From positions 1 to 24,100 of the IMG/VR virus record IMGVR_UViG_3300036768_001570: a stretch of DNA of 24,100 nucleotides. One strand, 5' to 3'. Position numbers and translations under genes: made by a program. The DNA comes from a virus. Shown here piece by piece: positions 1 to 5,461 of this stretch; the stretch's first letter is position 1, and each line of letters starts with the position of its first letter. The notes beneath the pieces were generated by a model, which saw only the letters and a program-made list of their open reading frames with translations, ran no database searches and was not told where the DNA came from.

Positions 1-400
1 AAAAGCTGTTCGTGAATGACGCATATCCTGCATTTTCAGTGTCGCCTACATAAACTAAATCACCTTCACGGGGTCTGATTCTATTTGGAATGCCTAGCTC
101 GATGAATCTTTTTTTACTCAATACGAATGTGGCAGTGTCTGTCATCCGTAGACCAAATTTCGACATTATATCACCTTCACCGCCATAACCTGTAATTTCT
201 TTCAAGTAAACTTCAATCTTGAATGCAGAATTGAACGATGATTTCTTTGGCTCACCAAGTATCGGATCAATTTCTAGATATTCTCGTGGAATATAGAAAA
301 CATCAAATCCTGCATTTCTGATGCTCTCAACCACCAGACTTTCGTAGAAAGACTGTTCTGATTTATTTTTGAGGTGGTTAAAGTAAGGATTTGTAGTCAT
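1..400 (-). CDS. gp14: Neck protein gp14-like (partial, C-terminus off the left edge)
   Basis: I translated this edge gene by hand. It starts at the ATG read from 400 and stays open to base 1, giving about 133 residues. The N-terminus reads MTTNPYFNHLKNKSEQSFYE and continues with YIPREYLEID, a FKIEVYLKEITGYGGEGDIMSKFG segment (shown here only as a landmark) and a TATFVLSKKRF stretch. This layout is typical of the T4-type neck protein gp14, which with gp13 forms the collar that closes the filled head and receives the tail. The ATG follows immediately after the gp13 stop codon at 401-403, so the two genes are almost certainly translationally coupled. Function comes from recognised family resemblance plus gene order; the missing C-terminus cannot be judged. 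Confidence 0.85.
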   Translation of the reverse strand, partial: MTTNPYFNHLKNKSEQSFYESLVVESIRNAGFDVFYIPREYLEIDPILGEPKKSSFNSAFKIEVYLKEITGYGGEGDIMSKFGLRMTDTATFVLSKKRFIELGIPNRIRPREGDLVYVGDTENAGYASFTNSF

Positions 401-1141
401 TTAACCAACCATGAAATCTATAGGTAATTGCCATACATCCTGTAACTCTTCTTCGAGTTGTTGAATTTCAGCATTAGCATCATCAAAAAGTTGTCTGCCA
501 TTTAAAGTAATGCCAGAAGGTAATTGAAACCCATCATATTTGATTAAATTCTGACCCCATTGCCTTTTAATCAGGGCAGACGCATATTTTTTCAGCCAGA
601 TATTATTCCAAACGCTATCATAATCTTCTGGGTCTATGATCACGTAAGCTTCTAATACGATATAATCACCAGGTTTGAAAAGCGTCCAATCGGTATCCAG
701 GAAAAGACGATTTGTGTGACGATTCCAGCGAATCATCTTTTCGCGGTTGAAAAATTCATTAATTGTCTTCAAATATTCTTCAGTGATGGCATAGCTATGT
801 AATCCATCGTTAATTAAACGTTTCACATTCATTATTTCTGTTAAGAAAAATTGATATTCGAGATTTAAGCTACTAGAAATGTTATTGAATGGTAAGATTC
901 GAAGAATCGTTACAATATTTTCAGGAATTGTAATGTAACGATTGGTGATATCATCTGAAGTTAAAGTAACGGTTACAAAATTCTTTTCAGATCCTTCACC
1001 ATGAAATTCCCAAAATTTCTGTAGCGCATCATCGATACAATCATCAATCTGTTCATCAGCAACATTAATTTCGATGACTGGTGCACCAAGTTTTCTTAAA
1101 CAATATTCTGCGAATTGCTGCCGTGTGTAGATGGTTGCCAT
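401..1141 (-). CDS. gp13: Neck protein gp13-like
   Basis: A 246-residue protein. The N-terminus (TRQQFAEYCLRKLGAPVIEI, then NVADEQIDDCIDDALQKFWE) is the hallmark of T4-type neck protein gp13, which forms the ring joining portal and tail after packaging. Length is somewhat below the roughly 300 residues of T4 gp13 but similar to relatives in other T4-type phages. The start ATG at 1141-1139 is supported by a strong AGAGGA ribosome binding site at 1155-1150. The gene is first in a gp13-gp14 pair and has its own late promoter box at 1171-1164. Its ribosome binding site and start codon form one arm of a 17-bp inverted repeat, described separately. Identity rests on family recognition and on gp14 lying directly downstream. 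Confidence 0.88.
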   Translation of the reverse strand: MATIYTRQQFAEYCLRKLGAPVIEINVADEQIDDCIDDALQKFWEFHGEGSEKNFVTVTLTSDDITNRYITIPENIVTILRILPFNNISSSLNLEYQFFLTEIMNVKRLINDGLHSYAITEEYLKTINEFFNREKMIRWNRHTNRLFLDTDWTLFKPGDYIVLEAYVIIDPEDYDSVWNNIWLKKYASALIKRQWGQNLIKYDGFQLPSGITLNGRQLFDDANAEIQQLEEELQDVWQLPIDFMVG

Positions 1142-1244
1142 AGTTCAAATCCTCTTATGTTTTTATTTATCATAATAGTCAAGTAAGAAAATTCATGTGT
1201 TAGTTTATCGATTCATTGTAATTTTTCAGAGGATTTGAACTATG
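1139..1244 (-). promoter_or_regulatory. Inverted repeat that can occlude the gp13 ribosome binding site, with the late promoter in its loop
   Basis: Bases 1139-1155 (CATAGTTCAAATCCTCT) are the exact reverse complement of 1228-1244 (AGAGGATTTGAACTATG): 17 bp with no mismatch, separated by 72 nt. In leftward RNA the 3' arm contains the whole AGAGGA ribosome binding site and the AUG of gp13. RNA entering from the adhesin genes would carry both arms and could pair them, hiding the start. RNA begun at the GATAAATA box (1171-1164), which lies between the arms, has only the 3' arm and stays open. T4 uses this layout for lysozyme e and a few other late genes; its use here is inferred. Confidence 0.6.
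1164..1171 (-). promoter_or_regulatory. T4-type late promoter box GATAAATA for gp13-gp14
   Basis: On the minus strand the bases read GATAAATAAAAAC, matching the T4 late promoter -10 box (TATAAATA, the only element recognised by the phage late sigma gp55) at 7 of 8 positions. Transcription would start around 1158-1156, leaving a leader of about 15 nt that carries the AGAGGA ribosome binding site. The same extended string GATAAATAAAAA recurs ahead of the tail fibre gene. Confidence 0.7.
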
Positions 1245-1301
1245 AAAGAAATGCTAGTGTAAAAGATGGATCTTGCCTTCTCGTTTTAGTATGTTACCGC
1301 A

Positions 1302-1328
1302 TTGATGGTTTCATCAAAGTAATTTTTT
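1302..1328 (+). terminator. Terminator-like hairpin in rightward orientation
   Basis: A 6-bp stem TTGATG/CATCAA (1302-1307 and 1312-1317) with a GTTT loop is followed five bases later by six T residues at 1323-1328. The stem is AT-rich and short. No plus-strand gene is visible upstream, so it may be fortuitous or may stop antisense transcription. Confidence 0.25.
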
Positions 1329-1407
1329 ATAATGTTAGAGCTAGTCCGAGGCAATGACTAAATTGAGAATTTTAACATAATGTCATTTTCAAATCTTATT
1401 GCTTTTG

Positions 1408-2148
1408 TTACCTAAACTCCCAAATTTCGATGTAACCACTGGCGCCTGCGCCGCCGTTACCACCTTTGCTGTTAGGACCGCCTCCACCGCCACCGCCGCC
1501 ACCAGCACCGTAGCCAGTAGCGTCGTTGCCTGGATTACCACTGCAGCCGCCGCAATTACCGCCAGCGCCGCCGAAACCACCATTGTTACCTGGACCGCCA
1601 CCTCCGATGCCCCCGCTGCCGCCATAGGTACCGCCATTGTTGCCAGCTCCGCTGTTACCTCCTCCGATATTGATATAACCACCAGAACCACTACCACTGA
1701 CACCACCATTACCGACGCCATTTTGGCCTCCAAGGCCACCGGAGCTGCCGCCACCGGCATAACCAGCATTGCCACCGTAACCGCCAGTTGCCGTTATCCC
1801 GGCAATAGTCGTACTACCACCGTTACTACCATAGGTGCCATTGTTACTAGCAGCACCGCCACTACCACCGACACCTCCAGCGCCAACAGTATATGAATAA
1901 GATGAAGCAGGGTTAGTAATAATTATCTCAGCATAACCACCCGCACCCCCTCCATGGCCGCCGCCGCCGCCGTAGCTAGCGCCACCGTTACCCCCACCAC
2001 CGCCACCTCCGCCGCCTCCACCACCAACGGCTTTGATTAATAACGCAGTGACATTTGCTGGTTTATTGTATGTCCCACTACCAGGTGTAGTGATGCGAAC
2101 GATATTGACTAGTTTGCCAGGTTGTAAAAATTGCGAGACGTTGCTCAT
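1408..2148 (-). CDS. Glycine-rich adhesin 3 (gp38-like, poly-glycine sandwich type)
   Basis: A 246-residue protein. It opens MSNVSQFLQPGKLVNIVRIT, then carries the conserved TPGSGTYNKPANVTALLIKA segment and a run of twelve glycines. GGYAEIIITNPASSYSYTVG comes next, followed by about 150 residues of glycine motifs split by S, N, A and Y. It ends GYIEIWEFR. This is the architecture of phage distal-fibre adhesins such as S16 gp38, in which glycine-rich motifs pack as polyglycine-II helices and intervening loops bind host receptors. It is the last of three paralogues in tandem and the most distal gene of the fibre operon. The start ATG at 2148 is shared in context with its sister copies. Long antisense reading frames here are by-products of glycine codons. 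Receptor and host are unknown. Confidence 0.8.
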   Translation of the reverse strand: MSNVSQFLQPGKLVNIVRITTPGSGTYNKPANVTALLIKAVGGGGGGGGGGGGNGGASYGGGGGHGGGAGGYAEIIITNPASSYSYTVGAGGVGGSGGAASNNGTYGSNGGSTTIAGITATGGYGGNAGYAGGGSSGGLGGQNGVGNGGVSGSGSGGYINIGGGNSGAGNNGGTYGGSGGIGGGGPGNNGGFGGAGGNCGGCSGNPGNDATGYGAGGGGGGGGGPNSKGGNGGAGASGYIEIWEFR

Positions 2149-2185
2149 GCCAATCTCTTATGTGATTACTCTTTTATTTCTCTTG

Positions 2186-2815
2186 TTAAATGAACTCCCA
2201 GATTTCAATAAAACCACTACCACCCGCACCTCCAGTACTTCCGCTAGCACCAGCACCTCCCCCATTACCTCCCCCTCCACCGCCGCCGCTAGTACCCGCG
2301 CCTCCAGAGCCTCCGCCGCCTCCACCTCCTCCATTGCCTCCAAGACCTCCGTTGCCGTTACTGCCGTTGGGGCCAGCAATAACAATATTACCACCGGCCC
2401 CAACACCACCAACACCACCTGCGCCAGCACTACTACTATTACTGATACCTCCACCGCCTCCAGTACCACCATTTGCTGTCATTCCAGCAATAGTCGTATT
2501 ACCGCCGTTGGCACCATCACTACCTCTACTGCTACCGCTGTTACCCCCAGCGCCTCCAATCCCGCCTGCACCAACAGTATATGAATAAGATGAAGCAGGG
2601 TTAGTGATAATTATCTCAGCATAACCACCTCCACCTCCTCCTCCCCCGCCTCCACCGGCATAACCACCTCCACCTCCTCCACCGCCACCACCAACGGCTT
2701 TAATTAGCAACATAGTGACATTCGCAGGTTTATTGTATGTTCCACCACCGGGTGTAGTGATGCGAACGATGTTAGCTGGTTTACTAAATTGTAAAAATTG
2801 CGAGACGTTGCTCAT
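2186..2815 (-). CDS. Glycine-rich adhesin 2 (gp38-like)
   Basis: A 209-residue paralogue of the neighbouring adhesins. It has the same N-terminus (MSNVSQFLQFSKPANIVRIT), the TPGGGTYNKPANVTMLLIKA block, long glycine runs, the GGYAEIIITNPASSYSYTVG block and the NTTIAGMTANGG segment. It ends GFIEIWEFI. The conserved ends look like attachment and folding parts, while the central glycine motifs and their interrupting residues differ from the sisters, as expected of receptor-binding loops. It sits between the fibre-assembly-like gene (gap 42 nt) and adhesin 3 (gap 37 nt). Its leader (TGTATAAAAATTAATATG) resembles that of adhesin 1, so copies probably duplicated with their leaders. Role in host recognition is inferred from the family. 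Confidence 0.8.
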   Translation of the reverse strand: MSNVSQFLQFSKPANIVRITTPGGGTYNKPANVTMLLIKAVGGGGGGGGGGYAGGGGGGGGGGGYAEIIITNPASSYSYTVGAGGIGGAGGNSGSSRGSDGANGGNTTIAGMTANGGTGGGGGISNSSSAGAGGVGGVGAGGNIVIAGPNGSNGNGGLGGNGGGGGGGGSGGAGTSGGGGGGGNGGGAGASGSTGGAGGSGFIEIWEFI

Positions 2816-2857
2816 ATTAATTTTTATACAATTACTTAATCGTTATTAGATTGAGTT

Positions 2858-3301
2858 TCAATTTGGCCATTGTAGAATTGGAAGCTCTGCCTCGAATTCT
2901 TCCCATGTCGGTATTGGCCGCTGACCTGACTGTACATCATTCAAGATTTCATAACACTTCGCCCAGGTTGCATCGCGCACTTGTACACAATATTGTCCTT
3001 CAGCTGCGAATTTCGAGTTTGTGCTTGCTACATAAGTACATGCTGAGAGAATACCGTCATATCCACGCGTACGCGCAAAAGCATCAAGACGGGCTTGAAC
3101 TTTTGCTGCAAACTCAGCAATGATTTCTTCTGGTGATTTAGTTGGAGGTGGAGGATTGACAAAAGTCAACCCATCCCATGTTGCTCCAATCTGTACCCAC
3201 TCAGGTGCTTCGATAAGTGTGTATAAGTCGCCGTAACAATCAAGGGAAGGAACTTCCCATAAATCTTTTACAATACCGTCTTCGATTCTTGCTGCTCTCA
3301 T
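2858..3301 (-). CDS. Tail fibre assembly-like protein
   Basis: A 147-residue protein. The N-terminal half (RIEDGIVKDLWEVPSLDCYG, then EAPEWVQIGATWDGLTFVNP) resembles the short beta module common in phage fibre-assembly proteins. A PPPPTKSPEE linker leads to a helical C-terminal part: FAAKVQARLDAFARTRGYDG, then ILSACTYVASTNSKF and RDATWAKCYEILNDVQSGQR, and finally IPTWEEFEAELP. This second module is widespread downstream of tail fibre genes in phages and prophages and is usually regarded as a chaperone or small fibre component. Its ATG overlaps the stop of adhesin 1 by 4 nt (ATGA at 3301-3298), indicating coupled translation. The exact role (chaperone or virion part) cannot be decided from sequence. 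Confidence 0.6.
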   Translation of the reverse strand: MRAARIEDGIVKDLWEVPSLDCYGDLYTLIEAPEWVQIGATWDGLTFVNPPPPTKSPEEIIAEFAAKVQARLDAFARTRGYDGILSACTYVASTNSKFAAEGQYCVQVRDATWAKCYEILNDVQSGQRPIPTWEEFEAELPILQWPN

Positions 3302-4002
3302 TGACTGAACTCCCAGATTTCGATAAAACCACTACCGCCCGTACCTCCAGCGCCACCGCTACCATTGCTGTTGCCACCGCCAGCTCCACCACCGCCGCCG
3401 CCTCCGTAGCTACCATTGCTACCACTGCCGCCGTTACCGCTAGTACCCGCGCCCCCACTACCTCCACTACCACCACCAGCTCCACCGCCACCACCGTTAC
3501 TACTACCGACGGTGCCGTTGTTACCACCGTTGCCGTTAACGTTAATATGGCCTTTGGTAGCGGTGGCGCCGCTACCACCACTACCTCCGCCACCGCTACT
3601 ACCACCCGAGGCGGCACTACCACCGTAGCCAAAAGTACCACCATTTGCTGTCATTCCAGCAATAGTCGTATTACCGCCGTTGGTGCCATTACCGCCACCG
3701 CCGCCACCACTGCCCCCACCTCCACCAACCCCACCTGCACCAACAGTATATGAATAAGATGAGGCTGGGTTAGTGATAATTATCTCTGCATAACCCCCCG
3801 CTCCACCACCCCCGCCACCTCCACCTCCGCCACTTCCGCTAGCACCAGCGCCACCTCCACCACCCCCGCCACCTCCACCAACGGCTTTAATCAATAACGC
3901 AGTAACGTTTGCTGGTTTATTATATGTTCCACTACCGGGTGTAGTGATGCGAACGATATTGACTAGTTTGCCAGGCGGGAAAAATTGTGTTAGAGTACTC
4001 AT
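3298..4002 (-). CDS. Glycine-rich adhesin 1 (gp38-like)
   Basis: A 234-residue member of the adhesin trio, encoded directly after the 442-residue fibre (gap of 9 nt). It starts MSTLTQFFPPGKLVNIVRIT and shares TPGSGTYNKPANVTALLIKA, glycine runs of up to ten, GGYAEIIITNPASSYSYTVG and NTTIAGMTANGG with its sisters. It ends GFIEIWEFSQ. Being next to the fibre gene, it is the best candidate for the tip adhesin currently mounted on the fibre; the downstream copies may be alternative or additional tips. It lacks T4 gp38 sequence similarity in the strict sense; the comparison is with the poly-glycine adhesin class seen in S16-like phages. Confidence 0.8.
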   Translation of the reverse strand: MSTLTQFFPPGKLVNIVRITTPGSGTYNKPANVTALLIKAVGGGGGGGGGGAGASGSGGGGGGGGGGAGGYAEIIITNPASSYSYTVGAGGVGGGGGSGGGGGGNGTNGGNTTIAGMTANGGTFGYGGSAASGGSSGGGGSGGSGATATKGHINVNGNGGNNGTVGSSNGGGGGAGGGSGGSGGAGTSGNGGSGSNGSYGGGGGGGAGGGNSNGSGGAGGTGGSGFIEIWEFSQ

Positions 4003-5453: not shown

Positions 5454-5461
5454 TATTTATC
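5454..5461 (-). promoter_or_regulatory. T4-type late promoter box GATAAATA for the tail fibre operon
   Basis: The minus strand reads GCGATAAATAAAAATG, sharing GATAAATAAAAA with the gp13 promoter and differing from the T4 late box TATAAATA only at its first base. It lies in the 153-nt gap after the small coiled-coil gene. The predicted start near 5448 gives an unusually long leader of roughly 108 nt before the fibre ATG. Confidence 0.65.

Follow-up and report, generated by a model that had tools for sequence, protein, structure and literature searches.

Start-hiding hairpins in T4 and a predicted counterpart at gp13

A hairpin that hides a translation start from some transcripts but not others is an established device in T4-like phages. 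In the T4 genes e, soc, 49 and I-TevI, the ribosome-binding site (RBS) and/or the AUG lies in a helix on the longer RNA, and the late RNA lacks the 5' strand of that helix, as set out in PMC3014915 and PMC2988022. The homing endonuclease genes I-TevI, I-TevII, I-TevIII, segB and Aeh1 mobE have a late promoter beside an RBS-sequestering hairpin and sit in early or middle transcription units (PMC2988022). The principle is thus already known from T4 genes and from several homing endonucleases, but the portions of PMC3014915 and PMC2988022 consulted do not name gene 13 among the T4 hairpin cases.

The locus considered here lies on a 24,100-base contig of an uncultivated T4-like phage, equal to the whole of its record and hereafter called the window. 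On the minus strand, baseplate genes are followed by related glycine-rich adhesin-like genes, gp13 and the next neck gene (Table 1). A sequence-only reading of the window had claimed that an exact 17-bp inverted repeat pairs the RBS and AUG of gp13 with an upstream copy, that a late promoter lies between the arms, and that such a match would hardly arise by chance. All three points are borne out. The arms are complementary at 17 of 17 positions and 72 nt apart; the 3' arm reads AGAGGATTTGAACTATG on the minus strand and spans exactly -14 to +3 of gp13 (AGAGG...ATG); and the box between the arms, GATAAATA, is a variant of the T4 late-promoter consensus. No other perfect inverted repeat in the window is as long, the runners-up having 15 and then 12 bp, and none of 200 dinucleotide shuffles of the window reached 17 bp (largest 15). 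Of the 22 gene starts in the window, all but that of gp13 have at most eight complementary bases upstream. The repeat also tops the 2,038 start regions of all the T4-like loci fetched, for which a control with exchanged starts gave a maximum of 13.

Table 1. Features around the gp13 start in the window
Feature	Position	Strand	Basis
3' arm: Shine-Dalgarno AGAGG through gp13 AUG, -14 to +3	1139..1155	-	17/17 complementary to 1228-1244
5' (blocking) arm; only in RNA entering from upstream	1228..1244	-	complementarity and predicted folds
72-nt loop with the promoter inside	1156..1227	-	distance between arms
Late promoter box of T4 type, GATAAATA, within the loop; 30 nt to the ATG	1164..1171	-	motif; spacing to start similar in L009/L010
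Predicted late transcription start, 5 nt after the box (box = -13 to -6)	1158	-	rule from PMC2988020
gp13, neck protein (head-tail adaptor Ad2)	401..1141	-	PHROG 211, E 1.8e-45
Start of the next gene, gp14 by synteny; ATG 400-398 abuts the gp13 stop	1..400	-	translation; gene order in relatives
266-nt gap, adhesin stop to gp13 start; no homologue or terminator-like site found	1142..1407	-	
Last adhesin-like gene upstream, glycine-rich	1408..2148	-	PHROG 863 'tail fiber assembly'; weak Pfam Gly_rich_2
Box GATAAATA resembling a late promoter, upstream of the adhesin genes; presumed source of read-through, putatively active	5454..5461	-	motif

No tRNA or known RNA family was detected at the repeat. 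Elsewhere in the viral collection the 17-mer has four single hits, about the number expected by chance on a rough estimate, and none is a useful relative. The gap that contains the repeat gave just short or weak matches; the sole repeated one, of 32 nt to E. coli T4-like phages near the gene for single-stranded DNA-binding protein, was taken as coincidence. On the plus strand, the upstream arm reads as an RBS followed by a six-codon mini-ORF (1242-1262, ATGAAAGAAATGCTAGTGTAA). Further upstream, three tandem adhesin-like genes (1408-4002) share stretches of DNA that are 76-79% identical, which suggests adhesin gene duplication.

The sequence-only reading had invoked the logic of T4 gene e, and the arrangement is indeed the one described for e, soc, 49 and I-TevI in PMC3014915 and PMC2988022. 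With e, soc and 49 the window shares an RBS/AUG helix on the longer RNA and a late promoter that leaves out its 5' strand (PMC3014915), and with the homing endonucleases a late promoter beside an RBS-sequestering hairpin, though here in a virion operon rather than an early or middle unit (PMC2988022). What is new in the window is the long loop, the position of the 5' arm wholly upstream of the box, and the inclusion of the AUG in the 17 bp; in T4 e, by contrast, the arm overlaps the box. The blocked RNAs of T4 are, furthermore, mainly early or middle ones, whereas that of the window would be late.

Predicted folding and a proposed translational switch by promoter choice

For minus-strand RNA from 1264 to 1119 the predicted folding energy is -24.5 kcal/mol, where shuffles average -13.4 (z = -3.9), and the predicted fold has a helix of 17-18 bp that contains both the Shine-Dalgarno sequence and the AUG. 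The hairpin is still predicted in a 367-nt context, where the total energy is not unusual (z = -1.1). T4 late boxes occupy positions -13 to -6 relative to the transcription start (PMC2988020), and the window's box lies downstream of the 5' arm, so that RNA from this promoter would lack that arm; in the predicted fold of RNA starting at 1158, the hairpin is gone and the gp13 start region is open. The mean unpaired probability of positions -14 to +3 is 0.005 (0.5%) in read-through RNA and 0.65 (65%) in promoter-born RNA, these being predictions that vary with the RNA ends chosen. Under the same procedure the leader of T4 gene e, used as a positive control, gave 0.19 against about 0.34-0.48 in shortened RNAs, the latter value being a range because two boxes occur there. 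In silico, then, the contrast between long and promoter-born RNA comes out as the sequence-only reading had anticipated.

We consider the best explanation, with a probability of about 0.6, to be a cis-acting translational switch that works by promoter choice and guards the neck operon against read-through. RNA derived from the adhesin genes would carry the blocking arm first and the gp13 start region after it, and the 17-bp helix would hide the Shine-Dalgarno sequence together with the AUG; gp13, and probably the abutting gp14 too, would remain untranslated from such RNA. RNA begun at about 1158, from the late promoter in the loop, would have no blocking arm and would allow gp13 to be translated. 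The neck operon's late promoter, rather than transcription of the variable adhesin cassette, would thereby govern the operon's output.

The repeat, the promoter motif, the order in which they lie and the predicted folds are established; that the promoter is active, that transcripts read through, that translation is repressed in the cell and that the phage benefits, we infer. Read-through from the adhesin operon into gp13 is plausible, since a late-promoter-like box (5461-5454) lies upstream of the adhesin genes and the stretch before the arm showed no terminator-like site. The adhesin stop and the arm are 163 nt apart, so the helix should not be opened by ribosomes terminating there. Further support comes from hairpins of similar logic, apparently built independently, at gp13 in other T4-like phages (see below). 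The timing rationale of T4 does not transfer directly because the upstream transcript here would also be late. Insulation might be favoured by an effect of neck protein dose or timing on head completion or, alternatively, because frequently swapped fibre cassettes may bring in read-through that is hard to predict. If the proposal is correct, start-codon hiding extends beyond lysozyme, soc, gene 49 and the homing endonucleases to an essential virion operon, and assembly should be sensitive to the dose or timing of neck protein, such that a premature or excessive supply could do harm.

Close relatives and alternative explanations

The closest relatives do not share the hairpin. In L006 and L007, whose gp13 is 97% identical in amino acids and 92-93% in nucleotides, and in L008 (93% and 87%), neither promoter nor hairpin is present, and a different upstream gene ends 3 nt before gp13. 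The more distant L009 and L010 (76% and 72%) keep the late promoter and the RBS at nearly equal spacing, but the upstream arm is absent. No gp13 relatives were found in the genome collection, and the 17-bp repeat is carried by one contig only.

The sequence-only reading had named as evidence against itself the finding of relatives that keep the RBS but not the upstream arm. L009 and L010 are of this kind, and L006-L008 lack the promoter as well; the idea of a closed read-through RNA and an open promoter-born RNA is partly supported, with the predicted folds in its favour and the nearest relatives against it. The gene e structure is kept among T-even phages, but the window's is absent from L006-L010, and the hairpins of other clades are analogous, not homologous; we file the element as one that works like the gene e switch, not as a proven homologous member of that class. 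Compensatory changes in the exact 17-bp element cannot be sought, since no relative carries it. The lack of a hairpin in the nearest relatives makes the element lineage-specific; it is not conserved and may be of recent origin. Given that the upstream region is wholly different where gp13 is 92-93% identical in nucleotides, the cassette junction lies at or near the ATG, and this sequence change suggests that the element arrived with or after an adhesin cassette exchange.

The same observations feed the main rival explanation, in which the repeat is a functionless scar: while the adhesin cassette was being exchanged, a template switch or a short inverted duplication would have copied the gp13 start upstream and left an unselected hairpin. 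What speaks most for such a scar is that close relatives lack the element and that the sequence changes at the ATG, and a gap without homologue and a repeat still perfect are both compatible with a recent copying event. Against a scar stand the bounds of the copied piece, which are exactly the start of the Shine-Dalgarno sequence and the AUG, the promoter in the loop, and the location at the single gene for which selected hairpins with this logic occur in other lineages; a harmful block would, moreover, carry a cost, the gene being essential. On balance we think the scar unlikely, while taking it seriously.

It is decidedly improbable that the hairpin affects the fate of the RNA rather than initiation, whether by attenuating transcription or by serving as an RNase III-type processing site at the border of adhesin and neck genes. 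A helix of 17-18 bp is a possible RNase III substrate, and some related gp13 hairpins, those of L099, L083 and the cultured Synechococcus phage S-H9-2, end in T runs and look terminator-like. The window's hairpin, whose loop is 72 nt long and whose arm is not followed by a T run, does not fit the GC-rich, short-loop hairpin followed by a T run that defines an intrinsic terminator, and cleavage within the stem would cut the RBS itself.

Inverted repeats flanking a promoter might also let the intervening 72-bp segment flip as a DNA switch that turns gp13 on and off, but switching off a neck gene that is essential has no evident use, the main proteins of the window included no recognised recombinase, and the promoter has the identical orientation in L009 and L010, so that we give this very little credence. 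Chance or an assembly artefact, to which the restriction of the repeat to one contig might point, is just as hard to credit in view of the shuffles and exchanged starts described above and because assembly k-mers are usually longer than 17 bp and each flank is unique, which would argue against misassembly.

Hairpins in other gp13 leaders

Translational control by promoter choice gains from a comparison across T4-like phages. We gathered gp13 leaders from about 250 viral contigs and compared them with those of other late genes. One partner in the pairing assessed was the late-promoter box end together with the next nine bases, the other was the rest of the leader, and arms exchanged between loci served as the null. 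The gp13 leaders had a mean duplex energy of -4.76 kcal/mol against -2.72 (sd 0.15) for the swap null, with 25% below -8; the other late genes, represented by flanks only since the loci were fetched by gp13, had a mean of -2.76 against -2.46, with 4% below -8. On a gp13 tree the promoter-overlapping hairpins are found mainly in two large clades, inside which the share below -8 is 85% for gp13 leaders and 6% for other late genes. Many T4-like gp13 leaders have no hairpin.

In the clade hairpins (for example at L106 10001, L099 2700, L122 1226, L054 1388 and L216 4001, in L221 and in others), the box end and a 5-nt spacer pair with the Shine-Dalgarno region of gp13, and the arms vary in a compensatory manner. 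Arm pairs include GTTCC/GGAAC, GTCCC/GGGAC, GTCTT/GAGAC, GCCTC/GAGGC and GGCGGAA/TTCCGCC. Within each of the two clades, none of 1000 arm swaps matched the observed energy. In an 18-sequence alignment of one clade, 82% of cells in the helix are paired, with 17 double-sided changes, against at most 43% and at most 7 in slid controls; the count of pair types in the clade alignment of 18 sequences did not exceed that in shuffles. RNAalifold gave no consensus pairs on the alignment of the MANP clade, for which reason the case for covariation rests on the named structure and the arm-swap energies. The MAFFT alignment of the GGAG clade (A5) was out of structural register and was not counted.

Like the window, these gp13 hairpins of uncultivated phages pair the Shine-Dalgarno sequence with sequence that, as the box occupies -13 to -6, would mostly be lost from promoter-born RNA. 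They differ in their short loops, in a 5' arm formed by the box end and 5-nt spacer, and in being of unrelated sequence. It is this class, in which an arm includes the box end, that is enriched; arms flanking the box show no clear enrichment as a class (mean -11.84 against a swap null of -11.26); in this flanking-arm test the window's own box-flanking hairpin came out at 0.0013 per leader.

Box-in-loop leaders at gp13 were seen in the mutually related L230 and L235 and in S-H9-2. All three have the late-promoter box in a hairpin loop before gp13, as in the window, but the loops are small and a T run follows the 3' arm in terminator-like fashion. In L230 and L235 a duplex of about 20 bp is predicted around the box, and it takes in the Shine-Dalgarno region of gp13. 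In S-H9-2 (L270, NC_070960; gp13 at 701), the hairpin that has GATAAATA in its loop resembles a terminator and is followed by a T run, so that a promoter box is nested in a terminator-like structure; here the arm misses the start codon and the predicted accessibility of the start region is not lowered.

That gp13 has repeatedly acquired varied hairpins around its late promoter, making the border between fibre and neck genes a preferred site of insulation with neck protein made only from the promoter, is a tentative proposal, for which we would put the odds a little short of even. A fibre-like gene lies just upstream of gp13 in the hairpin-bearing L106, L099 and L230, but not in others such as L200. 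If the proposal holds, such hairpins are a repeated, selected trait of T4-like neck operons, with a testable rule: gp13 should have its late promoter within or next to a hairpin that hides the RBS. We found no description of a gp13 leader hairpin in the open literature, subscription papers lying outside the search, and the gp13-centred recurrence of hairpins appears to be undescribed.

In L200 the gene directly upstream of gp13 (1903-3966) matches two Pfam domains, CHASE2 (E 1e-35) and guanylate/adenylate cyclase (E 2e-22), and a start similar to that of this gene is present in L201, L055 and L082. Late-promoter hairpins were also seen over the RBS of genes in L133 (3703-4437) and L162 (about 4796) that by eye resemble GIY-YIG-type homing endonucleases, a likeness for which Pfam gave no match; such genes of T4-like phages are already known to have hairpins of this sort. 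Lastly, in phage T2 (L267), a GC-rich hairpin, GGGGCC-GCAA-GGCCCC, stands between wac and gene 13, just before the gp13 ribosome-binding site.
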